A stretch of 49,747 nucleotides of DNA from an uncultured Prevotellaceae bacterium (GTDB taxonomy: Bacteria > Bacteroidota > Bacteroidia > Bacteroidales > Bacteroidaceae): assembly GCA_947167515.1 (NCBI GenBank), contig CAMVIM010000009.1, positions 72,522 to 122,268 on the forward strand. The letters are read 5' to 3'. The translations under genes were made by a program, and so were the position numbers. Below are positions 6,601 to 43,904 of this stretch, piece after piece. Every line of letters starts with the position of its first letter. Positions within the stretch are counted from its first letter, which is position 1. The notes beneath the pieces are model-generated. The model saw only the letters and a program-made list of their open reading frames with translations, was not told the DNA's origin and searched no databases.

Positions 6601-8034
6601 ATGTCTGAACTTGAAGAATGGCAGGGCAATGCACCTGCAGCAGAAGAAAAATCTGACAACAATGGCGGTGACCGTGAGGGCTTCCGTCCATCCTACAACC
6701 GTGAAAGCAATTATGGTGGCCGTCCACAATTCAATCGTGGCGATCGTCCGCAGCGTCCTCGCTTCAATCGCAACGAGCGTGCGGCCTACAGTTCCAATGG
6801 CGTACAGAACGAACGTGGATTCCGTCCTGCTGGCTTCGGTGGCTCCTCTTCCTCTGAAGAAGGTGGTTACCAGCAGCGTGGCGGCTATCAGCAGCGTCCT
6901 TACAATAACAATGGTGGTTACCAGCAGCGTGGTGGCTACAACCAGCAGCGTGGCGGCTACCAGCAACGTGGTGGCTACCAGCAGCGTGCTGGTTACAACA
7001 ATGGTGGTTACAACAACCGAGGCTATCAGCCCAATGGCGAGCAGGAAGGCAACTTCGAGCAGCAGGGCGGCTACCAGCAGCGCGGTGGTGGCTATCAGCA
7101 GCGTGGCGGTTACCAGCAGCGCGGTGGCTACAACCAGCAGCGTGGTGGCTACCAGCAGCGAGGTGGCTACCAGCAGCGTGGTGGCTACAACAATCAGCGT
7201 GGTGGCTACAACAACCAGCGTGGTGGCTATCGTCCACGCACTGCCGACTACAATCCGAATGCGAAGTACAGCATGAAGAAGCAGATTGAGTACAAGGAGT
7301 ATCTTGAAGACCCCAATGCACCCATCCGCTTGAACAAGTTCTTGGCAAACGCAGGCGTATGCTCACGTCGTGAGGCCGACCAGTTCATCCAGGCAGGCGT
7401 CGTGTCTGTCAACGGACAGGTCGTGACCGAATTGGGTACCAAGGTGCAGCGTACCGACCAGATACACTTCCACGACCAGCTCGTGAGCATCGAGAAGAAG
7501 GTGTATGTCATCCTCAACAAGCCCAAGGATTACGTGACCACCTCTGATGATCCTCAGCAGCGCAAGACCGTCATGGAACTGGTCAAGAACTGCTGCCGCG
7601 AGCGCATCTACCCTGTGGGCCGACTCGACCGCAACACCACGGGTGTGCTCCTCTTCACCAACGATGGCGACCTGGCCTCCAAGCTCACCCATCCTAAGTT
7701 CCTGAAGAAGAAGGTGTATCATGTCTTCCTCGACAAGAACCTCACCGCTGCCGACATGAAGCAGATTGCCGAGGGCATCACCCTCGAGGATGGCGACATC
7801 AAGGCCGATGCCATCAGCTATGCTTCCGAGACCGACAAGAAGCAGGTGGGCATCGAGATTCACTCTGGCAAGAACCGCATCGTGCGCCGCATTTTCGAAA
7901 GCCTTGGCTACAAGGTGTGCAAGCTCGACCGCGTCATGTTTGCAGGTCTCACCAAGAAGGGCATCAAGCGTGGCGACTGGCGTTTCCTAACCGAGCAGGA
8001 GGTGGCCATGTTGCACACAGGACATTATGAATAA
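6601..8034 (+). CDS. RluB/RsuA-type pseudouridine synthase with long RGG-like disordered N-terminus
   Basis: 477 residues. The C-terminal half is a standard pseudouridine synthase that isomerises a uridine in rRNA: an S4 RNA-binding domain (~241-290, RLNKFLANAGVCSRREAD) and a catalytic domain with GRLDRNTTG (340-348), in which Asp343 is the catalytic residue. Near the end, GKNRIVRRIFESLGY is typical of the RsuA/RluB/RluF branch. The first ~235 residues are low complexity, with about 20 YQQRGG, YNQQRGG and YNNQRGG units. Such Arg/Gly/Tyr/Gln tails bind RNA and can phase separate. Family members without a tail are 230-300 residues, so the tail doubles the protein. The substrate uridine cannot be told from sequence. 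The gene is preceded by an AT-rich leader and followed by a large hairpin. Confidence 0.93.
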   Translation: MSELEEWQGNAPAAEEKSDNNGGDREGFRPSYNRESNYGGRPQFNRGDRPQRPRFNRNERAAYSSNGVQNERGFRPAGFGGSSSSEEGGYQQRGGYQQRPYNNNGGYQQRGGYNQQRGGYQQRGGYQQRAGYNNGGYNNRGYQPNGEQEGNFEQQGGYQQRGGGYQQRGGYQQRGGYNQQRGGYQQRGGYQQRGGYNNQRGGYNNQRGGYRPRTADYNPNAKYSMKKQIEYKEYLEDPNAPIRLNKFLANAGVCSRREADQFIQAGVVSVNGQVVTELGTKVQRTDQIHFHDQLVSIEKKVYVILNKPKDYVTTSDDPQQRKTVMELVKNCCRERIYPVGRLDRNTTGVLLFTNDGDLASKLTHPKFLKKKVYHVFLDKNLTAADMKQIAEGITLEDGDIKADAISYASETDKKQVGIEIHSGKNRIVRRIFESLGYKVCKLDRVMFAGLTKKGIKRGDWRFLTEQEVAMLHTGHYE

Positions 8035-31162: not shown

Positions 31163-31224
31163 TCCGATTTTTCGTGTCGAGAGTGGCACGACTATAGATG
31201 TTTTATATTTTTTCAACAAACAAG

Positions 31225-33528
31225 ATGAACGTAATTACAAAGAAGGTTTCGTTGCCTGATGGAAGAGAAATCAGCATCGAAACAGGAAAGCTGGCAAAGC
31301 AAGCGGATGGAGCGGTGATGCTTCGCATGAACGACACCATGCTCCTCGCCACTGTTTGTGCAGCGAAAGATGCAGTACCGGGAACAGATTTTATGCCACT
31401 CCAGGTAGAGTATCGTGAGAAGTATGCGGCTAATGGCCGTTTTCCTGGAGGTTTCACCAAGCGTGAAGGTAAGGCAAGCGATGAGGAAATCCTCACTTGC
31501 CGTCTTGTTGACCGCGCCCTCCGCCCTCTGTTCCCATCGAACTATCACGCAGAGGTTTATGTGAATGTCATTGTCTTTTCTGCCGATGGCAAAGATATGC
31601 CGGATGCTCTGGCTGGTTTTGCTGCTTCCGCAGCACTGGCTTGCTCGGATATTCCTTTCGAAGGTCCTATCTCAGAGGTGCGTGTGGCTCGCATCAATGG
31701 CGAGTTTGTCATCAACCCCACCTTCGAGCAGTTGAAGGAGGCTGATATGGACCTAATGGTTGGTGCCACTGAGGAGAACATCATGATGGTGGAAGGTGAG
31801 ATGAAGGAAGTGCAGGAGAAGGACCTTCTTGAGGCTCTGAAGGCTGCTCATGAGGCTATCAAGCCACAGTGCCGCTTGCAGAAGGAACTGATGAAGGAAC
31901 TTGGCAAGGACGTGAAGCGTGAGTATTGTCATGAGGTGAATGATGATGACTTGAAGGCAGACCTCGCTGCTAAGTGCTACCAGCCTGCTTACGATGTGAC
32001 GAAGCAGGGTCTTGAGAAGCAGGCTCGTACAGAGGCTTTCGAGAAGATTCGTGAAGATTACAAGGAGGCATACGCTGCTGCTCACACTGATTTGAGCGAA
32101 GAGGAATTGGACGAGAAATACACGTTGATTGACCGTTACTACCACGATGTAGAGCGTGATGCCATGCGTCGTTGCATCCTTGATGAGGGTGTGCGTCTTG
32201 ATGGCCGTAAGACCACTGACATCCGTCCTATCTGGTGCGAGGTTTCTCCACTGCCTGGACCTCACGGAAGTGCTATCTTCACTCGTGGTGAAACACAGGC
32301 ATTGGCTTCTGTCACTCTTGGCACGAAGCTCGACGAGAAGTTGGTTGACGGTGCATTGGAGCGTTACTACATGAAGTTCTTGCTCCACTACAACTTCCCT
32401 CCATTCTCTACAGGCGAGGCTAAGGCACAGCGTGGTGTGGGTCGTCGTGAAATCGGTCACGGTCACCTCGCATGGCGTGGCATCAAGGGACAACTTCCAG
32501 ATGATTATCCATACACTGTCCGTGTGGTCAGCGATGTGCTGGAGTCAAACGGCTCTTCATCTATGGCTACCACTTGTGCGGGTACCCTCGCATTGATGGA
32601 TGCAGGTGTGCCCATTAAGAACCCCGTGGCTGGTATCGCTATGGGTCTTATCAAGAACCCAGGCGAGGACAAGTACGCTATTCTTTCTGATATTCTTGGC
32701 GATGAGGACCACCTCGGCGATATGGACTTCAAGACCACTGGTACGAAGAACGGTCTGACAGCTACTCAGATGGACATCAAGTGCGACGGTCTTTCTTACG
32801 AAATTCTTGAAAAGGCACTCATGCAGGCTAAAGCCGGTCGTGAGCACATTATGGGTGAGATGATGAAGACTATTTCTGAGCCTCGTCCTGAACTCAAGCC
32901 ACACGTACCACGCATTGAGCAGATTATCATTCCTAAGGAGTTCATCGGTGCCGTCATTGGTCCTGGTGGTAAGGTTATCCAGCAGATGCAGGAAGACACT
33001 CAGACCGTCATCACCATTGACGAAGAGGACGGTGTGGGCAAGGTGCAGATTTCTGCTCCAGGACGCGATGCCATCGAGGCTGCCATTGCCAAGATTAAGG
33101 CCATCGTTGCCATCCCCGAAGTGGGTGAGGTATATCATGGTACCGTTCGTTCGGTGATGCCTTACGGATGCTTCGTGGAGTTCTTGCCTGGTAAGGACGG
33201 TCTGCTTCACATCAGTGAGATTGACTGGAAGCGTCTCGACACCGTTGAGGAGGCTGGCATCAAGGAAGATGACGAGATTGACGTGAAACTTATCGACATC
33301 GACCAGAAGACGGGTAAGTACAAACTCTCTCGTCGTGCCCTCATTGAGAAACCTGCCGACTACCAGGAGCGTCCACAGCGCGAACGTCGTCCTCGTCCAG
33401 AGCGTGGCGAGCGTCGTCCACGTCCAGAACGCAACGACCGTCAGCCACGTCACAACGAGCCACGCAACGAGGCTCCTGCACAGGAAGGTGGCGACTTCAA
33501 GTCTGCACTTGATGACCTGATTAAGTAA
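31225..33528 (+). CDS. pnp: Polyribonucleotide nucleotidyltransferase (PNPase)
   Basis: 767 residues from the ATG at 31225, which gives the conserved start [20 protein letters not shown]; an in-frame ATG 27 bp upstream is less likely. The trimeric 3'-5' exoribonuclease degrades RNA with phosphate and acts in mRNA turnover. Two RNase PH domains surround the helical middle; the second holds the catalytic region [20 protein letters not shown] and [16 protein letters not shown] domain follows ([20 protein letters not shown]), then S1 ([20 protein letters not shown]). The C-terminus adds ~45 residues rich in Arg/Pro ([18 protein letters not shown]), another charged RNA-binding-type tail. Monocistronic, with a terminator after it. 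Confidence 0.97.
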
Positions 33529-33600: not shown

Positions 33601-36537
33601 TTATGTGTTCATCACACTTCTGAGGGCGTTTGCTGCTTCTGAGAAGGCATCGACGTAGGTGCCGTCTGCTACAGGGTTGATGCCAAACTCTGCCCCTATC
33701 TCCTGCGATTGTGATGAGTTCTTTGTGGCGAGTTGCTCACTCAGCTTTCCTAATTTTCCTAAGGCTCGCATCGTGTCGCCACGCTCCTGCATCACTTTCA
33801 CGGCCTCCTTGATGTTGCCTTTCTCCAATAGGTCGAGTTTCTTGATTTGCAGGTCATTGATTTTCTTGATGAGTGGAGCCGCATCAGCGTCCTTCTTCAC
33901 CTTGCTGAGGGCACCCACGCCCTTGCCGATGCCGTAGTAAATGGCTTTCTGTACACCAGCCTGACCCGCCTCTTTGGCGATGTCCGTCATGTCGCCACCC
34001 TTAATGTAGGCATTCAAGGCACCCTTTGCCGCTTCACCACCTACCACAGCCGTCATCTCGCCCCAGCCACCTAACGACTTCGAGAATCTGCCTGCCTCGT
34101 TCTGCAACACGCCAAAGAGTCCTTCTGTCACTCCCTGCCATGCGGCGGTTTTCATGGCTTGTTCGTCACCCTTGTTATAGACATGTGCTTCAGCCACACG
34201 TTTCAAAGGAGCTTTTGCAAGGGTGTAGGCGTTCTTGAGAGCTTTGGCACCAGGACCTCCTATTTCGCCCATTACATTGATGGCAACGTCGCAGCCCTTG
34301 TCAATCGCCCATGTCACTCCTGTGATAGCCGTCCACACAGCCGCCGTGTTTTTGTCCTTTCGAGCCACTTCCTCCAAGGCTGCCTGCTTCTCTTTCATCT
34401 TCTCCATGATTGTTGCCTTGTCGGTTGTGCCAAACTCTTCCTCCAGTTTCCGCATCCGTTCCTTCTTCGCTTCTTCTGCCAGATACTGTTGCTTCCACTC
34501 CGTATGGCGTCTACTCGTTTCAGTCACACCCGTCTTTCGTTCACGCTCCCATTGTGCCTCGTTCTGCGCACGTTGTTCCTTCAGCCATTGTTGTGCTTGC
34601 TGCCGGTCCAGTTCTTTCAGACGCTCTGTTTCAGGGTCAACTGCAGGGGGGATGTCGCCTCCACCACCTATAGGCATACCTCCGCCAACGCCGCCCACCA
34701 GCGATGCCAACAAGATGCCAATCAAACTGATGACCACACTTTCCGTGGCTGTTGTATGCTCCCCCAATATTTCATTATCGCCATTAAGCCAACCAAGCAA
34801 CTTGTCTATCACACCAATGGTTTCTTCCTCTGTGCCACCACCTGTAATAGCGATGCTGTCGTTGCCCAGCGTCTCTTTGATGCCTTCCATCACGCTATCT
34901 TTCTGTTCCTCCAGTTCCTTCTCACCGCCAAGTTCTTCGTCTTCCTCATAGACCTTTTCCTCATGACGAACCACAATGTCAATCATCTGTTCGTATTTGG
35001 CAACCATCTCTTTCATCTTTGTCTCAGCCTGTTTCTGGATTCCGGGCATTTTATGCCGATACTCATGAAACCCTATTCCATAGCTAAGGCATGACAGTAT
35101 CAGCACAGCATAGCTTTCGCCCATTTCTTCCTTTAGGTTGGCTGGTTCGAACTTCCCCGAGTGTTTCAAGCAATCTTTAGCACCTTGTATATAGTTGTCC
35201 GTCGCCACTGGAAAGTTTGTCAGGAAGACATAGATACAATCCCATACATCAAAACCATATTGTTCTAAAACTTCCGTTTGGAACGTGTGCTTCCTTCTAA
35301 TCCGCATGGCTGGAAAACCTTTGAAGTTAAATTCTTCCGTCTCCAATGTATAGATGTTTCTTGCCTGTGCTCCCGCAATAACATCTTTCTCCCAATATTT
35401 TTCTATGACAGGAATGCCATATCTCTTCAGTTGGCTGATGCTGCCCAAAGGGGGATTGCTCGTTCCTTCTTCCCATAGAGAATTTCCTGTGCTCCAGCCG
35501 ATGCATGATTTCGGGATGTGTTGCCACAAATCCCAAATCCCCATTTGGACATACCATTCATAATGTCGTCGCCGATTATCATCCGTTCTCAATTCTTCCC
35601 CCAAAAGGAATCCATATTGCCCACGTCTTGTTTGATGTATAGTCTTATAGCTATTTACCCCTACAGTATTGCCACTTTTGTTAATGTATGGCACATGGTT
35701 CAGCTCTAGCATATAGCGGTCTTCTCGCAGGAGCACATCTTTCATTTCGTACTCTTCGATTCTTTTGCGGTGGTATTGTTTGATGACACTTTCCATCTTG
35801 TAAGTGTCAAAGCTATGCTCATCTGCTTCAGAAGATTCTTTCACTTCGGGAGGCGGCAGAATTTCTCCCCTGATACGTTCCAATGGGCTGATGGTTTCCA
35901 CGTAGTAATAATCCCCTCCTTCTTTGAATGGTGGAAAACCTCTGCGTCGGCTCTTTCCGTTATCACTATCACCGTTCTTCTCTTCAGAAGCCTCTTTTCC
36001 ACTTCCTCCTCTCATATAATGCAGCACATCCCAAGCGAATCCTTTTGTATAGCCCTCTCCATATCCAATGGCTGTGACGAGCCAGAACTCGGCTTGGGCA
36101 TCGTCTTGGTAGGTGAAAGTGTAGGAGATTTCACCGGATTGTTGGCTCACCACATCAAGGGCTTCCACCCAGTTCCTGCCTTTTGTCTTGGTGGAGGTCA
36201 GGGTGCGGTCGCCTTTCCCCACCACTTTCTTGTAGAGTGCTTCGCCCGTCTCTTTGGGTCTTTGGAAAAAGATGGCAGCATACAACCTCGGACTTTCCCC
36301 ATCAGGCCACAGGGCTTGGATGTACTCAGCCTGTTCCCCTGCTGTCAGCCCCACCTTGATGGGGCCTTTTACGATGGTCTCAGGCAACTGGCAGCGCACC
36401 ACGTCGCCCATGTTGTTCTCCACCACGGAGGGCACCACGTGTTCCCTCTCCGTCTGTTTCCATGTGCTCTGTGCCTGTGCCGTGATGCCAGCCCATGCCA
36501 ACATCAGAGCCACGAGTATTGTTGCAAGCTTTTTCAT
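33601..36537 (-). CDS. 978-aa secreted, membrane-inserted coiled-coil protein of unknown function
   Basis: Largest protein of the unusual cluster and its last gene. Signal peptide at 1-22 (MKKLATILVALMLAWAGITA). Residues ~25-175 form a beta-rich domain; ~180-215 are charged and disordered. Residues ~250-490 form a Trp/Tyr-rich domain (WYVQMGIWDLWQHIPKSCIG; WDCIYVFLTNFPVATDNYIQ). A Glu-rich stretch is followed by one hydrophobic, Gly-rich segment (~607-640, VVISLIGILLASLVGGVGGG). A long charged helix (~645-745) follows, then an Ala/Gly-rich region (DVAINVMGEIGGPGAKALKN; AAKGALNAYIKGGDMTDIAK) recalling cores of polymorphic-toxin or tape-measure-like proteins, and a final coiled coil. No catalytic motif is recognised. 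It lies 16 bp after the 121-aa gene, so it is co-transcribed. Confidence 0.75.
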   Translation of the reverse strand: MKKLATILVALMLAWAGITAQAQSTWKQTEREHVVPSVVENNMGDVVRCQLPETIVKGPIKVGLTAGEQAEYIQALWPDGESPRLYAAIFFQRPKETGEALYKKVVGKGDRTLTSTKTKGRNWVEALDVVSQQSGEISYTFTYQDDAQAEFWLVTAIGYGEGYTKGFAWDVLHYMRGGSGKEASEEKNGDSDNGKSRRRGFPPFKEGGDYYYVETISPLERIRGEILPPPEVKESSEADEHSFDTYKMESVIKQYHRKRIEEYEMKDVLLREDRYMLELNHVPYINKSGNTVGVNSYKTIHQTRRGQYGFLLGEELRTDDNRRRHYEWYVQMGIWDLWQHIPKSCIGWSTGNSLWEEGTSNPPLGSISQLKRYGIPVIEKYWEKDVIAGAQARNIYTLETEEFNFKGFPAMRIRRKHTFQTEVLEQYGFDVWDCIYVFLTNFPVATDNYIQGAKDCLKHSGKFEPANLKEEMGESYAVLILSCLSYGIGFHEYRHKMPGIQKQAETKMKEMVAKYEQMIDIVVRHEEKVYEEDEELGGEKELEEQKDSVMEGIKETLGNDSIAITGGGTEEETIGVIDKLLGWLNGDNEILGEHTTATESVVISLIGILLASLVGGVGGGMPIGGGGDIPPAVDPETERLKELDRQQAQQWLKEQRAQNEAQWERERKTGVTETSRRHTEWKQQYLAEEAKKERMRKLEEEFGTTDKATIMEKMKEKQAALEEVARKDKNTAAVWTAITGVTWAIDKGCDVAINVMGEIGGPGAKALKNAYTLAKAPLKRVAEAHVYNKGDEQAMKTAAWQGVTEGLFGVLQNEAGRFSKSLGGWGEMTAVVGGEAAKGALNAYIKGGDMTDIAKEAGQAGVQKAIYYGIGKGVGALSKVKKDADAAPLIKKINDLQIKKLDLLEKGNIKEAVKVMQERGDTMRALGKLGKLSEQLATKNSSQSQEIGAEFGINPVADGTYVDAFSEAANALRSVMNT

Positions 36538-36553
36538 ACCTCCTCCATTCGTT

Positions 36554-36919
36554 TCATTCGTTTGATTCGTTGTTCAGTTTCTCCACCACCTCGTTCAGTA
36601 GTCGGTCACGCTCCTCGCCTGGTTCCATGGGAATGTAGCGCCACTCTACGTTGTACTCCTTGCCTGTGGGACAGAAGCCGATGGCTCCTTCGTGGCTCAC
36701 GATGTAGAAGGTTCCGTCGATAGGTGGGTGCTGGTCGTCGCCCTGCTTGGCAAGGTCGAAGAGGTTGAAGTAGGTGATGGGGGCGTTGGTGGCTACGTCT
36801 CGCCACACCATGCAGCGTTGCATGGCAATGAAGAGGGCTTGTAGCCTACGAGGGTAGTGCCCTGTGAAGAAGGCTTTCATTGCCTCTTCTCTCGATTGAT
36901 TCTGGTCTTCTGTCTCCAT
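36554..36919 (-). CDS. Small soluble protein with VW/EGAIG domain (cluster gene A)
   Basis: 121 residues, no signal peptide or membrane segment, so cytosolic. Residues 21-97 are clearly homologous to residues 17-92 of the next protein upstream (36947-37405). Both start HY and share a helical part with AM-x-x-C-x-VW, then FN-x-x-DL, then FY-x-VS-x-EGAIG-x-x-P and W-x-x-IP. It lacks the zinc ribbon that its paralogue has. I do not recognise the family. It is 16 bp upstream of the 978-aa gene and 27 bp downstream of its paralogue. Confidence 0.75.
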   Translation of the reverse strand: METEDQNQSREEAMKAFFTGHYPRRLQALFIAMQRCMVWRDVATNAPITYFNLFDLAKQGDDQHPPIDGTFYIVSHEGAIGFCPTGKEYNVEWRYIPMEPGEERDRLLNEVVEKLNNESNE

Positions 36920-36946
36920 ACTTCCTATATCCGTTTCATCCGTGGT

Positions 36947-37405
36947 TCAAATAGTTCCTTCAATCTTTGTGCCGCAATGGATGCAGAACTTGTTGCTAGG
37001 AACGAGGGGCTTGCCGCAGTTCATGCAGAAGAGCATGGTTGGTGCCGTTGGGGTAGGGGTTACAGGAGGCGGTGGGGGTGTAGGAGGTGTGAGCGGTTGG
37101 ACATCTCTTTCAGCCTCCTCTTCTTCGGTCGGGATGAGTAGCCATTGGGTCATGTATTCGAAGCCAGGGCTTTTGCCGATGGCTCCCTCGCAGCTCACCA
37201 TGTAGAACTCATGTTCGCCCAGTGGGCGCTCCTTGTCGTGAGCCAAGGCAAACTCATAGAGGTCTTCTATGTTGAAGCGGGTGCTACCGTCCATCGTCTG
37301 CCATACGAGGCAATACTCCATAGCCTCAGCCAGTGCCGACGTGAGCGAGCGATAGTGATTGGGGTGCAGGTCAAGTGTCTGTCCGTTGTTCTGTTCCGTG
37401 CTCAT
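36947..37405 (-). CDS. Small soluble protein with VW/EGAIG domain and C-terminal zinc ribbon (cluster gene B)
   Basis: 152 residues, cytosolic. Residues 17-92 are the same domain as in gene A (AMEYCLVW; FYMVSCEGAIG; QWLLIP). A Pro/Thr-rich linker (~104-123) leads to a zinc ribbon: CMNC (127-130) and CIHC (141-144), spaced CxxCG-x10-CxxCG, as in the N-terminal ribbons of the membrane proteins encoded at 38054 and 39200. The start codon overlaps the end of the next upstream gene by 4 bp (37402-37405), which implies translational coupling. The ribbon is shared between a soluble and two membrane proteins of one operon, so it probably mediates a common interaction. Confidence 0.8.
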   Translation of the reverse strand: MSTEQNNGQTLDLHPNHYRSLTSALAEAMEYCLVWQTMDGSTRFNIEDLYEFALAHDKERPLGEHEFYMVSCEGAIGKSPGFEYMTQWLLIPTEEEEAERDVQPLTPPTPPPPPVTPTPTAPTMLFCMNCGKPLVPSNKFCIHCGTKIEGTI

Positions 37406-38034
37406 TCTTTTTCCTCCTCCTCGTCCTCGTCAGTTGGAAGACGGAAGTCCTCCACTGAGCCGTCCATGTTGACCAGCACACGTTCGCCACGCTTGTAGGC
37501 AAACATGAAGCCCTCGTCGCTCGCGTCCTGCGAGTTGGTCAGGTGGTAGATGCTACATCCGCAGGGAGCCATCTTGTAGAGCTTCACCTCGCTGCCGTCT
37601 TGGGCGGTAAGCGTCATGACGCCGATGCTCTCACCATCCTTGAAATACATATAGTTGAACCTGATGTTGCGACCCTTCGCGCGGTTGGTATAGATTCTCA
37701 CCTCTTGAGGCCGCTCGTCGTAAGCCACCGAGGGGAAGCCCTTTTCCTCGGCCAGCTCAGACACGGGCTGACCCTTATAGGTGGCATTGAGGGCAGCGTC
37801 GTAGTCGGTGTCGCTGTCATACATCCATGTGTCCCACAGTTCCTGCAGGTCGGTATTGTTCTTCTGCATGTAGTTGTAGCCCATCCAGCAGCCGATGCCG
37901 ATGGCTATCGCCAAGACCACTAAGATGGCACATCCGCATCCCAGACAGGTCTTGCCGAAGCAGCCGCTGCTGGGTTGCTGTGGGGGAGGGGGAACAGAGC
38001 CTGGATATGCTCCGTATTGCTGATTGTAAGGCAT
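37402..38034 (-). CDS. Single-pass membrane protein with CGCSIY domain (cluster gene C)
   Basis: 210 residues. The N-terminus is Pro/Gln-rich (PPPPQQP) without a zinc ribbon. A Cys/Gly-rich junction (GKTCLGCGCA) enters a membrane helix (~36-51, ILVVLAIAIGIGCWMG). The rest, probably extracytoplasmic, ends in a domain shared with the proteins at 38054 and 39200: SELAEEKGFPSVAY, a middle strand region, then [10 protein letters not shown] (158-167) and FMFAYKRGERVLVN. The tail is acidic. The absence of a signal peptidase site suggests an N-in orientation. The conserved Cys pair in CGC may form a disulfide or bind metal. Function unknown. Confidence 0.78.
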   Translation of the reverse strand: MPYNQQYGAYPGSVPPPPQQPSSGCFGKTCLGCGCAILVVLAIAIGIGCWMGYNYMQKNNTDLQELWDTWMYDSDTDYDAALNATYKGQPVSELAEEKGFPSVAYDERPQEVRIYTNRAKGRNIRFNYMYFKDGESIGVMTLTAQDGSEVKLYKMAPCGCSIYHLTNSQDASDEGFMFAYKRGERVLVNMDGSVEDFRLPTDEDEEEEKE

Positions 38035-38053
38035 AAGAATTAGAGATTAAGGG

Positions 38054-39172
38054 TTATTTCATGTTGATTTCTTTCATGCTGCCCTTCTGTCCGTAGAGCA
38101 TGCGTTTGCCGCCTTCATAGACGAAAAGGTAGGTGCTGCCGCCACCGCTCTTCGGATTAGCGAGAAGGTAGATGCTGTTGCCGCAGGATTGAAGGTTGTA
38201 CTTGAATTTCTCGCCAGTAAACCAATGGGTGACTTCCACTGTGCCCATTGTGGCGCGACCGCTCTGCTGGCTTATCTTGCACTGCACACCGATTTCGCTG
38301 TCTTTGTCGAGGTAGTACATGTCGTGCTTGGGCAGGGCGTTGTAACTCACTACGGGCACACCCAGTTCTTGAGCCAACTGCTTGGCTTTCTCCTTTTTTC
38401 CTGTAGCGGTATTCTTGGCTTCTTCTACTTTGGCCTTTTCTTCATTTTCGGTTGTCTCCTTCTTGTCCGCCTCTTCTTCTCCTTCAACACCTTCAGTTGT
38501 TTCCATCCCCTCGTTCTTTTCCATTCCTTCCATGATTTCCTTCTCGTCAAAATCCCCTTCTTCTCCATCTCCTTCTTCTTTCTCATCCATTCCTTCATTA
38601 TTGGAGAAATCGCCCGTTGTTCCGTTCTCGTTGTTGGTAGTGGTAGTAAATCCGCCTCCGTTCAGCAACTCTTCCCACTTCATGCCGTTCTTCTGCAGGT
38701 AGGAATAGCCCCACCAACCCAGTCCTCCGAGGGCAAGCACCACAACGAGGGCTATCGCACATCCGATGCCCAGACAGGTCTTGCCTTTACCACCGCCTTT
38801 CCCTGCATTCTCGTTCGTTTGAGGCTTAGGTGCTTGTGGCTTCTCAGTAGAAGGGGAAGGGGGGACCGGTGCCGTTGGTGTCACAGGTGGTTTAGGCACT
38901 ATTGGTGCCACAGGAGGTTCCGGTGCCGTTGGCGTCACAGGTGGTTCCGGTGCCGTTGGCGTCACAGGTGGTTCAGGCACTATTGGTGCCACAGGAGGTT
39001 CCGGTGCCGTTGGTGTCACAGGTGCCACAGGTGGATCGGAGGCCTGTGGTGCCTCTGTCACCACGGGTTCTGTTGTGTCCTCTACTATCTGCAAGGTGAG
39101 GTCGGCGCCGCAGCTGCCGCAAAACCTTGCTCCGTCTGGATTTTCAAATCCGCATTGTCCGCAAAATGCCAT
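38054..39172 (-). CDS. Zinc-ribbon, Pro-repeat, single-pass membrane protein with CGNSIY domain (cluster gene D)
   Basis: 372 residues. The N-terminal zinc ribbon has Cys4, Cys7, Cys18 and Cys21. Residues ~45-106 are tandem Pro-rich repeats ([18 protein letters not shown]) that could span a distance or bind partners. The junction [10 protein letters not shown] and a membrane helix (~138-153) follow, then ~100 residues rich in Glu, Asn, Gly and Met ([18 protein letters not shown]), low complexity. The C-terminal domain (~262-372) is paralogous to that of genes C and [26 protein letters not shown] (330-339), [12 protein letters not shown]. It keeps the first Cys of the CG[CN]SIY motif only. Same operon; the gaps are 19 and 27 bp. 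Confidence 0.8.
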
Positions 39173-39199
39173 ATTCTGTCTGTTTTTATGTTTTCTTTT

Positions 39200-39862
39200 T
39201 TAATCTTTGGGCAGGAAGAACTCTTCATGAATGCCGCTCTCATCGCTTATGATGATTTCTTTGGCTCCTTCATTCACGAAGAAGTAGCCGCACTCTTCAC
39301 TTTCATCATCAGGGTTGCTCAGGTGGTAGATGCTGCAGCCACATGGCGACACCCACAACTCTTTGGCACTCCCGGATGTAGGAATGATGTTCAGCGTGCC
39401 GATGAAGTCGCCCTCTGTGAAGTTGATGGATGCAAAGCGAATCTTGACGCTCTCGTCGTAGTTCCGATAGACACGCCCCTCCTTGGGCAGTTCACCGTTG
39501 GTCGCGGCAGGGAAACCAAGCTCTCCAGCCAGTTCCCTTACGGACTTCCCATTGTAGGTCTGCGCATCGGGGTCTTGTGCTCCCAGGCGACGTTTTGCTT
39601 CCCATTCCTTTTCTCCCTGCTTAAGCCATTCAATAGTCTCTTCGACCTCCTTGTCCTGTTGCTTCAGGTAGTTGTAGAACCACCAGACTCCACCGCCAAT
39701 CGCAAGCAGAAGCACGATAATTGCCACACCTGCGCAGCCGATGCATCCCTTCTTCATGCCGCTGCCATTCTCCGCAGTTTGAGTGGCGAGATTTGAGCCA
39801 CAGCCCATACAGAACTGTGATCCGTCGGGGTTCTGAGTCCCGCATTTCTTGCAAATAGCCAT
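39200..39862 (-). CDS. Zinc-ribbon single-pass membrane protein with CGCSIY domain (cluster gene E)
   Basis: 220 residues. Zinc ribbon with Cys4, Cys7, Cys18 and Cys21, spaced exactly as in gene D. A Cys/Gly junction (KKGCIGCAG) and a membrane helix (~45-64, [18 protein letters not shown]) follow directly, without the Pro-repeats. A short helix precedes the shared C-terminal domain: [28 protein letters not shown] (174-183), [13 protein letters not shown]. It is closer to gene C in the domain and to gene D in the ribbon, so the three arose by duplication and recombination. The ribbon should lie in the cytosol and the CGCSIY domain outside. Confidence 0.8.
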
Positions 39863-39903
39863 AGTCTTTTAGGTTTGTAGATTGTTTCTTGTCATGTGAG
39901 TTA

Positions 39904-40521
39904 TTACTTGGGCTCATACCGGAACACGTGTGTGCTGCTTTCATGTCCTGAAGTGGTGATGATGCTGTCACCGCTTGGATAGACGTAGAGCAGCGCTGGT
40001 ACCCAACAACGTTTGGCTTGTGTGGCGGGCATGGTGTCGCATGCCAGACTGTCGGTGGCCTCACAATCAGATTCCTTCGTCTCTAACGTGTAGATGGTGT
40101 AAACACTCTTGCCACGCGGCTGCACATAGCCCATTTCGGGCTCTCTGTCCACTGTGGCCCCCATGACAAACTGCCCGTTTATGTCCATCTCCACCATGCC
40201 AATGCTGTAGTCTGCATCATCGGTGGTGCCGAGATTGAAGGTGAGGCTGGAGCCAGTCTCCGCATTCACGTAACGTCCATCACGAGGTTGCGTGTCGATA
40301 TCCGTCAGCGTGAAGGGGATGAGCATCTGTGGCCCTCCAGCGTCATTATATGCCTTGATGGAGTCCATCAGTTGGTCCACGCTCAAATTGGGGTCTTCTG
40401 AATAGTATAATATCTGCCCCAAATAGTTTCTCTGTGCAGTCCCTTCTGGGTCGCATGCTGTCAAGAACAGGGTTGCGACCAACGTTGCCGCTATGGCCTT
40501 CATGAAGTTGTTCTTTTTCAT
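39904..40521 (-). CDS. Lipoprotein with YP-GDS domain (cluster gene F)
   Basis: 205 residues. Lipoprotein signal with lipobox LTAC (Cys23). The mature beta-rich domain (~70-200) is homologous to the N-terminal half of the protein at 41243: PRDGRYVNAE against PRDGVTYRQA, then GKSVYTIYTLE against GKGIFTLYTID, and VYPSGDSIITTSGHESS against VYPGGDSLLISRGNSTD. No catalytic residues are recognised. The start codon is 2 bp from the end of gene G, so these lipoproteins are coupled. Function unknown. Confidence 0.8.
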   Translation of the reverse strand: MKKNNFMKAIAATLVATLFLTACDPEGTAQRNYLGQILYYSEDPNLSVDQLMDSIKAYNDAGGPQMLIPFTLTDIDTQPRDGRYVNAETGSSLTFNLGTTDDADYSIGMVEMDINGQFVMGATVDREPEMGYVQPRGKSVYTIYTLETKESDCEATDSLACDTMPATQAKRCWVPALLYVYPSGDSIITTSGHESSTHVFRYEPK

Positions 40522-40523
40522 AT

Positions 40524-41210
40524 TTATTCCTCCTTTTCTGAAATTTCTTTGATGTATTCTGTCATCATTTCTTTCTCATTGTAATAGACTTCGTGCTCCT
40601 CATACACTTGCACGCTTGCATCGAACGACACCTGGCTCACCATGTCGAAGTTGTCCACATACCAGTCGCCACGTTCAAATACCAGATAGAGCTTCATTTT
40701 GGTCTCATAATGTAGCCTGACTTCCACCAGCACTTCGGCACGATGCATGGTGACATTGTCCACATCTAATACTTCAAAGCTCCAGTCCTTCAGGTCTTCA
40801 TCCTCCCAGGAGGCTAAAGTCCAGTGGTTATACACCAAGTCCGCTTCTTCCTGCAGGTCTTTCCCCTTGCTCTTCGCCACTTTCTCGGCCAAGGCACGGA
40901 GCCTCAGATAATTCTCGGAGCAACATTGCTGGTCGTCCTTGAGTTCGTAGAAGGACTTGACCCGTTGGATGATGTAGTGGGTGTTGTGTTGTTTGTCGTT
41001 GGGCGCAGGTTCGTCGTTGGCGATGGTGTCGGCCTCGATGCTGTCCAGGGCATCGTAGATGTCCAACTTCGCGACGGTGGCTGTATCGATGCCGATGCCG
41101 GGGCCGCCACAGATGGGGGTGTCCTTGCTCTTGTCCTTGCCGCCCCAGTTGCAGCTGCTGAACAGCGACAGCAGTCCGGCTGTCCATAAGGTTATCATAG
41201 TCTTGTTCAT
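40524..41210 (-). CDS. Lipoprotein with DUF3828-like domain (cluster gene G)
   Basis: 228 residues. Lipoprotein signal with lipobox FSSC (Cys20). The mature domain (~78-200) is homologous to the C-terminal half of the protein at 41243: QRVKSFYELKDDQQCCSENY against QRVNSFYKTMDDQKNCSEAY, then DWSFEVLDVDNVTMHRAEVL against DWSYKILEVTNISAKRAEAV, and FERGDWYVDNF against LERGDWYVDNF. The pattern W....I......A.V.V...........L..E.GDWYVDNF is reminiscent of DUF3828 proteins, NTF2-like envelope domains; this is tentative. Co-transcribed with F and H. Confidence 0.8.
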   Translation of the reverse strand: MNKTMITLWTAGLLSLFSSCNWGGKDKSKDTPICGGPGIGIDTATVAKLDIYDALDSIEADTIANDEPAPNDKQHNTHYIIQRVKSFYELKDDQQCCSENYLRLRALAEKVAKSKGKDLQEEADLVYNHWTLASWEDEDLKDWSFEVLDVDNVTMHRAEVLVEVRLHYETKMKLYLVFERGDWYVDNFDMVSQVSFDASVQVYEEHEVYYNEKEMMTEYIKEISEKEE

Positions 41211-41242
41211 ATTCTGTTTGATTGATGTACAAAAGGTGGGTG

Positions 41243-42334
41243 TCAGAAGGTGAAGATTTCCAAGAGTTCCTTTTCATCATACCTTTTTGAGACTTGGTCG
41301 GAATCTCCTGATTCTTCACTCTCGGAGTTTTGGGATGTAACGATGTAGAAGTTATCTACATACCAATCGCCTCGTTCGAGGGTGAGGATGAGACGGACAA
41401 TGGACTCGCGCTCCTTGCCTACAGAAACAACGGCTTCGGCACGTTTGGCTGATATGTTGGTCACTTCCAGAATCTTGTAGCTCCAGTCGGAACTTTGTGC
41501 GTCAGAGTCTTCGCCGCAGGTCCAATGGTTGGGGTATATGCTGCTGCGCTTGGCTGGGGTGGTGTCGAACTTGTCGGCGCTTTCTATGGCTGCATTGAGT
41601 ATCTGAAGATACGCTTCGGAACAGTTCTTCTGGTCGTCCATAGTCTTGTAGAAGGAGTTGACGCGCTGTGTGATGTGAGCCACAGTGTGCAGTCGGTCAG
41701 CAGGTGCGGGAGGGGCGGCTATGTAGGCGTCGTCCGTGGAGTTGCCTCGGCTGATGAGGAGGCTGTCGCCACCGGGATAGACGGAGATGATGGCGGGGAG
41801 AAAATGCATGCCATCGGAGGAGGCGCAGGCTTTTTTGGCTACTCGCTTGTCAATGGTGTAGAGTGTGAAGATGCCTTTGCCCCAGCTCTTCACTCGCGCG
41901 TCGGTCAGGGAGTCCTGCTCGAAGTACATGCGTTCGCGGAGAAACATGTCAGCTGTGCCGATGATGGCTGTATAGATGGTGTCATCATCTGCCTCGTGCG
42001 TTGGCTGACTAAGGTGGAAGGTGATGAAGCCGTCGGATGAGGCTTGGCGGTATGTCACTCCGTCGCGAGGCATGGGATTGCCTTCGTGTACAGGCAGGTT
42101 GACTTGCACGTTCACCTTGTTGAGAGTAGCTACCTCTTCGGGTGTTTGCGGGTTCTTTTCGGAGAAGACAGAGGGGAGCCAGTACTCGCCGGCCTGTTCA
42201 TACGTCCATCCGTCCATGATGGGTTGTCCGGTCTTGCCTCCGTTGATGTTGGGGCGACCAAGGTTGCATGCCGTCAGCACCAGGACTGCTATGCCTAGTG
42301 CCGCGAGGGTTTTGGTGTGGTGTTTCTTGTTCAT
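41243..42334 (-). CDS. Lipoprotein fusing the F and G domains (cluster gene H)
   Basis: 363 residues, first gene of the cluster. Lipoprotein signal with lipobox LTAC (Cys23). Residues ~80-205 carry the gene F domain and ~215-330 the gene G domain, with the matches given under those genes. So the two domains are encoded both as separate lipoproteins and as one chain, in the same operon. This arrangement usually marks physical partners. The upstream gap holds the 12-unit GTAC array and a distant promoter. The C-terminus is acidic and extends past the G domain. Function unknown. Confidence 0.82.
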   Translation of the reverse strand: MNKKHHTKTLAALGIAVLVLTACNLGRPNINGGKTGQPIMDGWTYEQAGEYWLPSVFSEKNPQTPEEVATLNKVNVQVNLPVHEGNPMPRDGVTYRQASSDGFITFHLSQPTHEADDDTIYTAIIGTADMFLRERMYFEQDSLTDARVKSWGKGIFTLYTIDKRVAKKACASSDGMHFLPAIISVYPGGDSLLISRGNSTDDAYIAAPPAPADRLHTVAHITQRVNSFYKTMDDQKNCSEAYLQILNAAIESADKFDTTPAKRSSIYPNHWTCGEDSDAQSSDWSYKILEVTNISAKRAEAVVSVGKERESIVRLILTLERGDWYVDNFYIVTSQNSESEESGDSDQVSKRYDEKELLEIFTF

Positions 42335-42369
42335 ATCGATTCAGGTGTTGGTTAGTCCTCTATTTTTAC

Positions 42370-42630
42370 CTCCTTCACAAGTACAACAGTCCTCCTTCAC
42401 AAGTACAACAGTCCTCCTTCGTAAGTACAACAGTACTCCTTCGTAAGTACTGCAGTCCTCCTTCGTAAGTACTGCAGTCTTTGTGTGTTAGTACTTTACT
42501 CCGCACTCATCAGTACTCTTGTCTTGATTCAGAAGTACTTCTCTCCTTATTCAGAAGTACTTCTCTCCTTATTCAGTGGTACTTGTCTCCTCATTCGGAA
42601 GTACTTCTCTCCTTATTCAGTGGTACTGAT
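42370..42630. repeat. 22-bp tandem array with 12 exactly phased GTAC cores
   Basis: GTAC occurs at 42381, 42403, 42425, 42447, 42469, 42491, 42513, 42535, 42557, 42579, 42601 and 42623: every step is exactly 22 bp. Units 1-5 follow CTCCTTC(A/G)(C/T)AAGTAC. Units 6-7 are diverged outside the core. Units 8-12 follow CTCCTTATTCAGAAGTAC or a GTGGTAC variant. Many cores extend to AAGTACTT, a palindrome. There are no unique spacers, so it is not a CRISPR. In the minus-strand transcript each unit carries AAGGAG-type sequence. The array occupies most of the gap between gene H and the malY-like gene. Confidence 0.95.
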
Positions 42631-42659: not shown

Positions 42660-42691
42660 CAAAAATACATGTATTTGTGTAATACTGCAAG
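42660..42691 (-). promoter_or_regulatory. Candidate promoter of the zinc-ribbon/lipoprotein cluster
   Basis: On the minus strand CTTG (42688-42691), 20 bp spacer, TATTTTTG (42660-42667). Transcription would start near 42654 and pass through the whole GTAC array, giving a ~320-nt leader before gene H. No better box is seen closer to gene H. Confidence 0.55.
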
Positions 42692-42734: not shown

Positions 42735-43904
42735 TCAGCAGCTGCTGACTCCACTTATGATGCGTTTGATGCCTTCCTCGACGCGGCTACGTTGCGTGGC
42801 GAGGTTGATGCGGATGTAGCCTTCGCCAGCCGTTTGACCATACATCGTGCCGGGGTTCACATAGACTTTGGCGTGCTTCAGCAGATGGTCTGCCACTTGC
42901 TGGGAAGTCTTGCCTGTGGCGCGGATGTCCATCCACATCAGGTAGGTGCCTTCCAACGTGGTGACGGGGCAGTGGGGCAGGGCTTCGCTGAGCATCTGTC
43001 GGGCTAGTTGGTAGTTGCTGGCGATGTAGGCGTTGAGTTGGTCGAACCATACCTCGCCCTCGGCAGAGTAAGCGGCTTGCAGGGCTATCACACCAAAGGG
43101 ATTCACGTCACACACCTCGTTGATGTTGATGGCCTTATCCACCTTGGCGCGGATGGTATCGTCCTTCACGATGATGTTGGCAATCTGTAAGCCCGCGATG
43201 TTGAAAGCCTTGGAAGGTGAGATGCATACCGCACTGTTCTGGGCAAACTCCTCGCTGATGGAGGCGAAAGGCGTGTAGGTGTGGCCAGGCATGGTGAACT
43301 CGCAATGGATTTCGTCGCTGATGACGAACACCCCATGCCGCAAGCATATCTCGCCCATGCGTGTCAATTCCTCCCGTGTCCACACACGTCCTGCCGGGTT
43401 GTGAGGGTTGCAGAGCAGAAAGACTTTCACGTTTGGGTCGGCACACTTCTGCTCAAAGTCTTCCCAATCCACCTCATAGCGTTGACTCACCATCTTGAGC
43501 GGATTTTCCGCAAGGATACAACCATTGTTTCTGATGCTGGAAAAGAAGCAATTATACACAGGTGTCTGCACGAGCACCTTGTCTTCCTCGCTGGTGACAG
43601 CTTTGATGATGGCCGAGATAGCTGGTACCACGCCGCTGGTGTAGATGAACGACTTTCTGTTTGTCGTCCATCCGTGCCGACGTACGAACCACTGGATGGT
43701 GGCCTCATAATAACTCTCTGGTACCAACGTGTAGCCAAAACAGCCGTGCTGCATTCTTTTCTTCAACGCCTCCAGCACACAAGGAGCCGTCTCGAAGTCC
43801 ATGTCAGCTACCCACATGGGGATGATGTCGGGGTCGGAAAACTCATCCCATTTCACGCAGTTGGAACCTCTTCTGTCGATGATTTTGTTAAAGTCGTAAG
43901 TCAT
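42735..43904 (-). CDS. MalY/PatB-type PLP-dependent C-S lyase
   Basis: 389 residues, normal for the family. A fold-type I PLP enzyme, most like MalY/PatB cystathionine beta-lyases that cleave cystathionine or cysteine conjugates. The family opening is present (YDFNKIIDRRGSNCVKWDEF, then PMWVADMDFETAP). Other marks are TSGVVPAISAIIKA, CNPHNPAGRVW, the Asp of VISDEIHCEF and the PLP lysine in SPSKAFNIAGLQ, then the Arg of YIRINLA. Cytosolic. It overlaps the DUF3737 gene by 4 bp (43901-43904), so the two are translationally coupled. It also follows the MATE gene in the same run. Aminotransferase activity is possible but less likely. Confidence 0.92.
   Translation of the reverse strand: MTYDFNKIIDRRGSNCVKWDEFSDPDIIPMWVADMDFETAPCVLEALKKRMQHGCFGYTLVPESYYEATIQWFVRRHGWTTNRKSFIYTSGVVPAISAIIKAVTSEEDKVLVQTPVYNCFFSSIRNNGCILAENPLKMVSQRYEVDWEDFEQKCADPNVKVFLLCNPHNPAGRVWTREELTRMGEICLRHGVFVISDEIHCEFTMPGHTYTPFASISEEFAQNSAVCISPSKAFNIAGLQIANIIVKDDTIRAKVDKAININEVCDVNPFGVIALQAAYSAEGEVWFDQLNAYIASNYQLARQMLSEALPHCPVTTLEGTYLMWMDIRATGKTSQQVADHLLKHAKVYVNPGTMYGQTAGEGYIRINLATQRSRVEEGIKRIISGVSSC

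Follow-up and report, generated by a model that had tools for sequence, protein, structure and literature searches.

Organization of the nine-gene cluster

The window, a stretch of 49,747 nucleotides of contig CAMVIM010000009.1 from an uncultured Prevotellaceae bacterium, contains a cluster of nine open reading frames (ORFs) at 33601-42334, all on the minus strand and arranged head to tail. In the direction of transcription the order is H-G-F-E-D-C-B-A-I, and the intergenic gaps from H to I are 32, 2, 41, 27, 19, −4, 27, and 16 bp. An earlier note on this DNA had described nine same-strand genes with gaps of −4 to about 40 bp, and the measured range of −4 to 41 bp agrees with it. On the comparisons given below, the operon merges two modules. 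The first is a core triad, I-AB-M, which consists of the large membrane protein I, the adaptors A and B with their EGAIG domain (AB), and a polytopic protein M. The second is a local block of D, G, and H at the slot between the presumed genes pnp and malY.

The first gene, H (41243-42334), encodes a predicted lipoprotein in which an HF (CGxSIY-type) domain at residues 1-206 (41717-42334) is fused to a G domain at residues 206-363. The two halves match separate places in relatives by tblastn. Genes G (40524-41210) and F (39904-40521) encode predicted lipoproteins with a G domain and an HF domain, respectively. The next three proteins each carry a membrane helix and an ectodomain of the CG[CN]SIY type. 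E (39200-39862) has a zinc ribbon (39788-39853) and a helix at residues 41-59, and D (38054-39172) has a zinc ribbon (39098-39166), a Pro-rich linker, and a helix at residues 133-151. C (37402-38034) has a Pro-rich N-terminus and a helix at residues 31-49, with no zinc ribbon. Part of the Pro-rich linker of D is encoded by a 27/81-bp tandem repeat (38866-39024), so the linker length may vary between strains. B (36947-37405) combines an AB domain with a C-terminal zinc ribbon (36965-37030) and takes the place of adaptor AB1 of the triad. A (36554-36919) is an AB domain alone and corresponds to AB2. The last gene, I (33601-36537), encodes a protein with a signal-like N-terminal segment, a hydrophobic segment at residues 601-619, and a family-conserved C-terminal half at residues 644-887 (33877-34608). 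No relative of its N-terminal region was found.

Domain content of the nine proteins

The Pfam family Zn_Ribbon_1 (PF13240) matched B, D, and E with 31.8, 30.8, and 32.2 bits, respectively, above the Pfam cut-off of 25. Besides these ribbons, nothing in the nine proteins passed the cut-off in the Pfam scan, and NCBIfam and PADLOC gave weak or below-cut-off matches only. The EGAIG/VW domain is common to A and B, and its invariant columns include W39, D61, G78, I80, and P97 in the first alignment. The CG[CN]SIY ectodomain follows the membrane helix in C, D, and E, where C142-G143 and Y147 are invariant. Domain F (the HF domain) is shared by F and H, and domain G by G and H. The earlier note had assigned these domains to the same proteins, and the Pfam scores and alignments confirm every assignment. 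Its total of five reused domain types does not stand, since the ectodomain and domain F are one family by profile comparison, which leaves four.

In that comparison, the C/D/E ectodomain and HF profiles aligned with an hhalign score of 42.5 and a probability of 82.7, over a span that includes untrimmed membrane or signal segments. The maximum in 100 column shuffles was a score of 21.5 and a probability of 2.1. The other controls gave 16.2 for the reversed profile, 17.6 (probability 0.6) for G against the ectodomain, and 25.2 (probability 5.9) for G against HF. HF proteins of another genus also match the ectodomain hidden Markov model (HMM), the best with an E-value of 1e-7 among about 100 ORFs, and one of them, L134_10, matches both models (HF 1e-18, ectodomain 1e-7). 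These E-values, like those of the triad-locus scans below, refer to small ORF sets. One periplasmic domain would thus be carried by three membrane-anchored proteins, of which two have zinc ribbons, as well as by lipoproteins.

The G domain and the C/D/E ectodomain have no Pfam match and no convincing sequence match in the PDB. A candidate identity of G as a known NTF2-like/DUF3828 lipoprotein found no match. Protein A was modelled by AlphaFold 2 with a mean predicted local distance difference test (pLDDT) score of 91.6 and a predicted template modelling score of 0.81. The model has the order helix-helix-strand-strand-helix-three strands-helix, and no convincing PDB or viral match to it was found.

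F, G, and H have lipobox-like motifs, and C, D, and E have one hydrophobic segment each. The signal, lipobox, and helix calls come from simple hydropathy and regular expressions, and the compartments given here are predictions. Protein I had been described as a large secreted protein with a hydrophobic segment. The segment is there, and because of it and of the fusions in relatives, I is better read as a predicted inner-membrane protein whose N-terminal half would be periplasmic and whose C-terminal half would be cytosolic, rather than as freely secreted.

The pnp-malY slot in relatives

We compared the slot in seven relatives of the same genus, with pnp on one side and MalY on the other (DUF3737 in L040). 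Counts for the slot and for the triad loci rest on tblastn and stop-to-stop HMM scans, by which further copies of AB and HF were recovered in L044 and L046. A gene with zinc ribbon and ectodomain (D type) is present in all seven relatives, G in five, and an H-type gene in five. I together with A- and B-type AB domains is found at the slot in three (L044, L045, and L046), and in L043 D stands alone. L044 has in addition a further HF copy, which is broken, and another ribbon. Single-ORF fusions join AB to I in L044 and L045 and AB, zinc ribbon, and D in L044; assembly errors could produce such ORFs, and the AB-I fusion is common to two genomes. In the ectodomain tree, D groups with the D of L046 (100/100), E with L040 (84/86), and C with L050 (81/83, on a long branch). 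The three do not group together, which indicates that the paralog content turns over.

The first gene of the slot is preceded by a promoter-like motif in all eight cases, the window and the seven relatives. Promoters of Bacteroides follow the consensus TAnnTTTG, which the slot motif resembles. In the window, the motif is TTG-N20-TATTTTTG of Bacteroides type at 42660-42690 on the minus strand, 325 bp upstream of the H start codon. In the seven relatives, 21-97 bases separate the end of TTG-N-GTACATTTGC from the end of the compared leader stretch. Both strands of the seven loci (125,781 bases) contain the pattern 22 times, the 9 slot matches included. The gene behind the motif varies by genome and is H, G, D, I, or AB-I.

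The I-AB-M triad

Scanning genome contigs with the M alignment gave 21 loci, from records of Bacteroidaceae, Prevotellaceae, Prevotella, Alloprevotella, Muribaculaceae, or Bacteroidales, nine of which name rumen or reticulum. These loci are not independent, as eight have the lengths of contigs sampled through other searches and some are close kin (L079 and L080 are 97% identical in M). The scan used two rigid peptide patterns and may have missed M in lineages beyond Bacteroidales. The flanks of the loci differ in length. I is found beside M at 20 of the 21 loci and AB at 19. The exceptions are L090, without AB, and L092, without I and AB, where M starts close to the contig end, at base 54 and at about base 10, respectively. 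One common arrangement is I, AB1, M, in many cases with a second I and/or AB2 behind M, and L099 holds four I paralogs. Among the 19 AB-bearing loci, the adaptor carries a zinc ribbon at nine, GYF_2 at six, neither at four, and both at none. M is polytopic and glycine-rich, with 63-71% identity to the first row of its alignment (6 rows). The C-terminal half of I is alignable across the family, with a mean column identity of 33% in alignment A2 and 26% in A6. The window has this half of I and the AB domains, in the arrangement I, AB1 (B, with the ribbon), and AB2 (A).

D and G are absent from the examined stretch at 18 of the 19 AB-bearing M loci. The exception, L087, is the pnp slot of one relative and has D and HF. 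L091 also has HF; in this Prevotella metagenome-assembled genome, an HF lipoprotein precedes I-AB-M outside the pnp slot. A weaker HF relative before I in L082 (5e-5; hhalign 94.9) was not listed at a stricter limit.

Several further features were seen around triads. The gene directly before I at L079 5926-6675, which is identical with L048 8070-8819, encodes a protein with a signal peptide and an F5/8-type NADase_transloc domain (PF25302, 2e-44). Five triads (L048, L074, L082, L086, and L090) lie beside what we take to be an anaerobic ribonucleotide reductase-like (nrdD-like) gene or its activase-like neighbour, and the nrdD-like site is a second recurring triad slot besides pnp-malY. Presumed type I restriction-modification-like genes, judged from their N-termini, directly follow M at L098 10766-18794. 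Pairs of a divergent B-like protein (AB and zinc ribbon) and an I-like protein at L053 9621-11663, L054 9452-11546, and L055 8971-11067 are possibly a simpler two-gene relative of the triad.

The occurrence of the modules apart from each other could mean that pnp-malY is a permissive, expressed site at which two independent families became co-transcribed without a joint function. None of the seven slot relatives has the full nine-gene combination, and in four of them D, with or without G or H, stands at the slot without A, B, and I. Triads at other sites lack D and G, and C, D, and E group with other loci rather than with each other, as paralog turnover would have it. Against such a history stand the AB-I and AB-D fusions, the HF gene that adjoins the triad of another genome (L091) away from the slot, and the meeting of the modules in three of the seven relatives. 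We consider it somewhat unlikely that the two families merely share a site, but this reading is a serious competitor of the joint assembly proposed below.

An export or surface-display apparatus is a further reading, with M as a membrane channel, I as a periplasmic/inner-membrane scaffold, and the lipoproteins as exported or outer-membrane parts. The polytopic M appears to be the best-conserved part, and an NADase_transloc protein adjoins I in one genome (L048, the same contig as L079), both of which would suit this role. No ATPase or outer-membrane channel was recognised in the nine proteins, however, and M was not detected in the window genome. Such a role seems very improbable to us.

Distribution across genomes

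The families are patchily distributed. I was found in 6 of 61 relatives, and E in 10 of 45 genomes of the genus, some of which match the zinc ribbon or helix only. Across 395 genomes of the phylum, I and AB were each found in one, the window genome itself, and the listed rows hold few genomes of its order. In the family, AB is present in 8 of 301 genomes and HF also in 8, two of them weak matches inside frames of 1894 and 1898 residues. AB and HF co-occur in two family genomes (G000 and G063), with a hypergeometric probability of 0.016 that assumes the same draw, counts the two weak HF matches, and ignores kinship. The ectodomain was detected in 10 of the 301 genomes, and five of these matches are weak (E-values 4.6e-6 to 8.1e-4) and cover the membrane-helix part only, as in G019. 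M was found in none of 188 genomes of the order, a sample without a known positive, and an I search of genome contigs found no confirmed relative. One M and one I query had no match in 72,556 plasmid records, and viral contigs scanned for M and AB yielded no confirmed relative either.

A second cluster built in this style occurs in another genus (L133 8418-14034). It encodes, consecutively, a zinc-ribbon protein with two CGxSIY ectodomains, a signal-peptide/membrane protein of 1224 residues, and an HF lipoprotein.

An interbacterial or anti-phage conflict module would also fit the scattered occurrence of AB (8 of 301 family genomes) and I (6 of 61 relatives), the four I paralogs of L099, and the turnover of paralogs. 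I would then be a membrane-anchored effector acting on the membrane through an alanine/glycine-rich helical end, AB domains and ribbons would restrain or load it, and the lipoproteins would act as sensors or immunity proteins. Conflict systems are reported to include GYF and zinc-ribbon domains, among them GAP1/DO-GTPase systems, which are likewise membrane-proximal and have zinc ribbons, with paired GYF domains in some cases from planctomycetes (PMC7159879). Unlike those systems, the nine proteins have no GTPase, vWA, or known effector domain in the Pfam and NCBIfam scans; these scans also gave no zinc-ribbon-fused TRAFAC GTPase, and GAP1 was not searched by a model. The C-terminal half of I stays alignable across the family instead of being swapped, and the triads sit in fixed chromosomal slots (pnp and the nrdD-like site). 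PADLOC 2.0 gave a single match, C against DruE, with 10.9 bits over 53 of 1460 positions and an E-value of 0.015. The negative plasmid and viral searches likewise speak against conflict, and we regard a conflict function as improbable.

Comparison with known systems

Among the nearest known systems is the pspA-ydjGHI operon, a parallel that has been studied by experiment. As described in two reports, YdjG of B. subtilis carries a membrane segment and an NTF2-like domain in addition to two zinc ribbons (PMC11237479), and YdjG and YdjH are needed for recruiting YdjI and PspA to the membrane (PMC8581546). Like YdjG, D and E each join zinc-ribbon and membrane segments to one more domain within a single chain. 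Both operons encode several membrane partners, and in pspA-ydjGHI the band-7 partner also has a zinc ribbon. Unlike in that operon, PspA, Band_7, and TPM are unmatched in the nine proteins by Pfam, and unlike in YdjG, the ectodomain has no sequence match to a known domain. The sole Band_7 match of the window genome is on contig C1, the window being on C9, and its PspA matches are below cut-off only (contigs C58 and C22). As judged from these matches, membership in the PspA-YdjGHI system fails because there is no PspA or Band_7 partner.

TcaA of Firmicutes has a zinc ribbon, a single membrane helix, and an extracytoplasmic domain, an architecture which D and E resemble. They differ from the TcaA type in that C, D, and E have no Pfam match above cut-off beyond the ribbon and belong to a multi-gene operon whose lipoproteins share the ectodomain. 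No paper describing a cluster of such content was found in the open-licence full-text library searched. Together with the Pfam, NCBIfam, and PADLOC results, this agrees with the earlier view that no described system has this content.

A proposed membrane-spanning assembly of two modules

We propose that the two modules, placed under one promoter, form a membrane-spanning assembly, and we put its probability at about 0.4. The cytosolic face would consist of the zinc-ribbon adaptors (GYF_2 in relatives), namely B and the N-terminal ends of D and E, together with the AB domains of A and B. The inner membrane would hold I, C, D, and E, and the periplasm the N-terminal half of I, the C/D/E ectodomains, and the lipoproteins F, G, and H. 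Since the same periplasmic domain is found on inner-membrane proteins and lipoproteins, direct or ligand-bridged contact is favoured, and the two kinds of protein may recognise each other or one common ligand. Single helices would pass the state of the periplasmic layer on to the ribbons and AB domains in the cytosol, and these would recruit or release the cytosolic helical half of I. The outcome would be an envelope-state sensor or scaffold. By analogy, the likeliest role is a zinc-ribbon-anchored inner-membrane sensor or scaffold that is YdjG-like in working and outside that system. The topology, the contacts, the direction of the signal, and the purpose are all proposed here on the basis of gene content, domain homologies, co-conservation, fusions, adaptor exchange, and the promoter-like motif, which are observed.

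Several points weigh against this assembly. The four relatives with D and without A, B, and I at the slot indicate that the D/G/H module does not need the triad. In one of them, G026 (99% complete), only D is at the slot and there is no I, AB, or HF match; the I search also found no match in the other three genomes (G005, G012, and G023). In the window genome, which is 98.85% complete in 74 contigs, M had no match at E≤1 (no positive control), so the window triad may be incomplete; M may be lost, in an assembly gap, or missed. The Pfam and NCBIfam scans of the nine proteins gave no domain of a transcription regulator, kinase, or enzyme. The idea that GYF_2 domains and ribbons read Pro-rich tails of M was not supported, as these tails have 0-1 prolines at four of the six GYF_2 loci and 4-30 at the nine zinc-ribbon loci. 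A GYF-like nature of the AB domain is unproven, with a score of 14.4 against a maximum of 15.0 in 60 shuffles and a GYF_2 profile of only 5 rows. The 1224-residue protein of L133 was not supported as an I homolog (hhalign probability 0.1). The AlphaFold 2 model of an I relative, L083 (669 residues), is poor, with an overall pLDDT of 62.2. It has a beta-rich N-terminal part, a helix at 260-284, a low-confidence stretch, and then long helices. The predicted helix at 260-284 fits the membrane segment, and the window I aligns to L083 from residue 574 onward only (7e-19 and 3e-06). The module without its partner, the failure to find M, the lack of a recognised output domain, the failed Pro-rich idea, and the possibility of mere co-residence keep our estimate for the joint assembly at the value given above.

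The earlier proposal of one undescribed system holds in part. The genes are undescribed, co-oriented, partly co-conserved, preceded by a promoter-like motif, and in some cases fused in relatives; they are not a single nine-gene unit, as the modules occur apart. The refuting outcome that the earlier note had named, genes scattered and not co-conserved in relatives, is half borne out, with D lacking A/B/I in four of seven and the triad lacking D/G at 18 of the 19 AB-bearing loci. More broadly, and with considerable doubt, we suggest a new Bacteroidales membrane system with I-AB-M as its core and interchangeable zinc-ribbon and GYF_2 adaptors on a new AB fold. Such a core would capture a second layer of ribbon proteins and lipoproteins sharing a new periplasmic domain, and the window would hold both layers in one operon, as a novel type of signalling or scaffold complex across the envelope.

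If this is true, Bacteroidaceae and Prevotellaceae carry a conserved multi-gene membrane system of several families without a Pfam match above cut-off, in which adaptor domains swap at one position and the membrane partners stay. With AB, I, M, the HF/CGxSIY domain, and G named as families, their contacts are testable. The system could tell how periplasmic lipoproteins link to cytosolic adaptors with no PspA-type partner alongside.

Neighbouring genes and other features of the window

The cluster is flanked on the I side by a convergent plus-strand gene at 31198-33528, which we take to be pnp. On the other flank lies a presumed MalY-like aminotransferase gene (42735-43904), followed by genes that we assume to be DUF3737-like and MATE-like. 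Between the promoter-like motif and H, the minus-strand leader contains 22-bp tandem repeats (42369-42627) in two arrays with AAGGAG-like cores, at 42369-42479 (5.0 copies, 93%) and 42512-42627 (5.3 copies, 81%). No such arrays were apparent by eye in the 81-158-base leader stretches of the seven relatives. The arrays of the window may adjust translation or differ in length among strains. Distant from the cluster, a long tandem repeat array of GGTGGCTACCAGCAGCGT units is present at 6862-7229.

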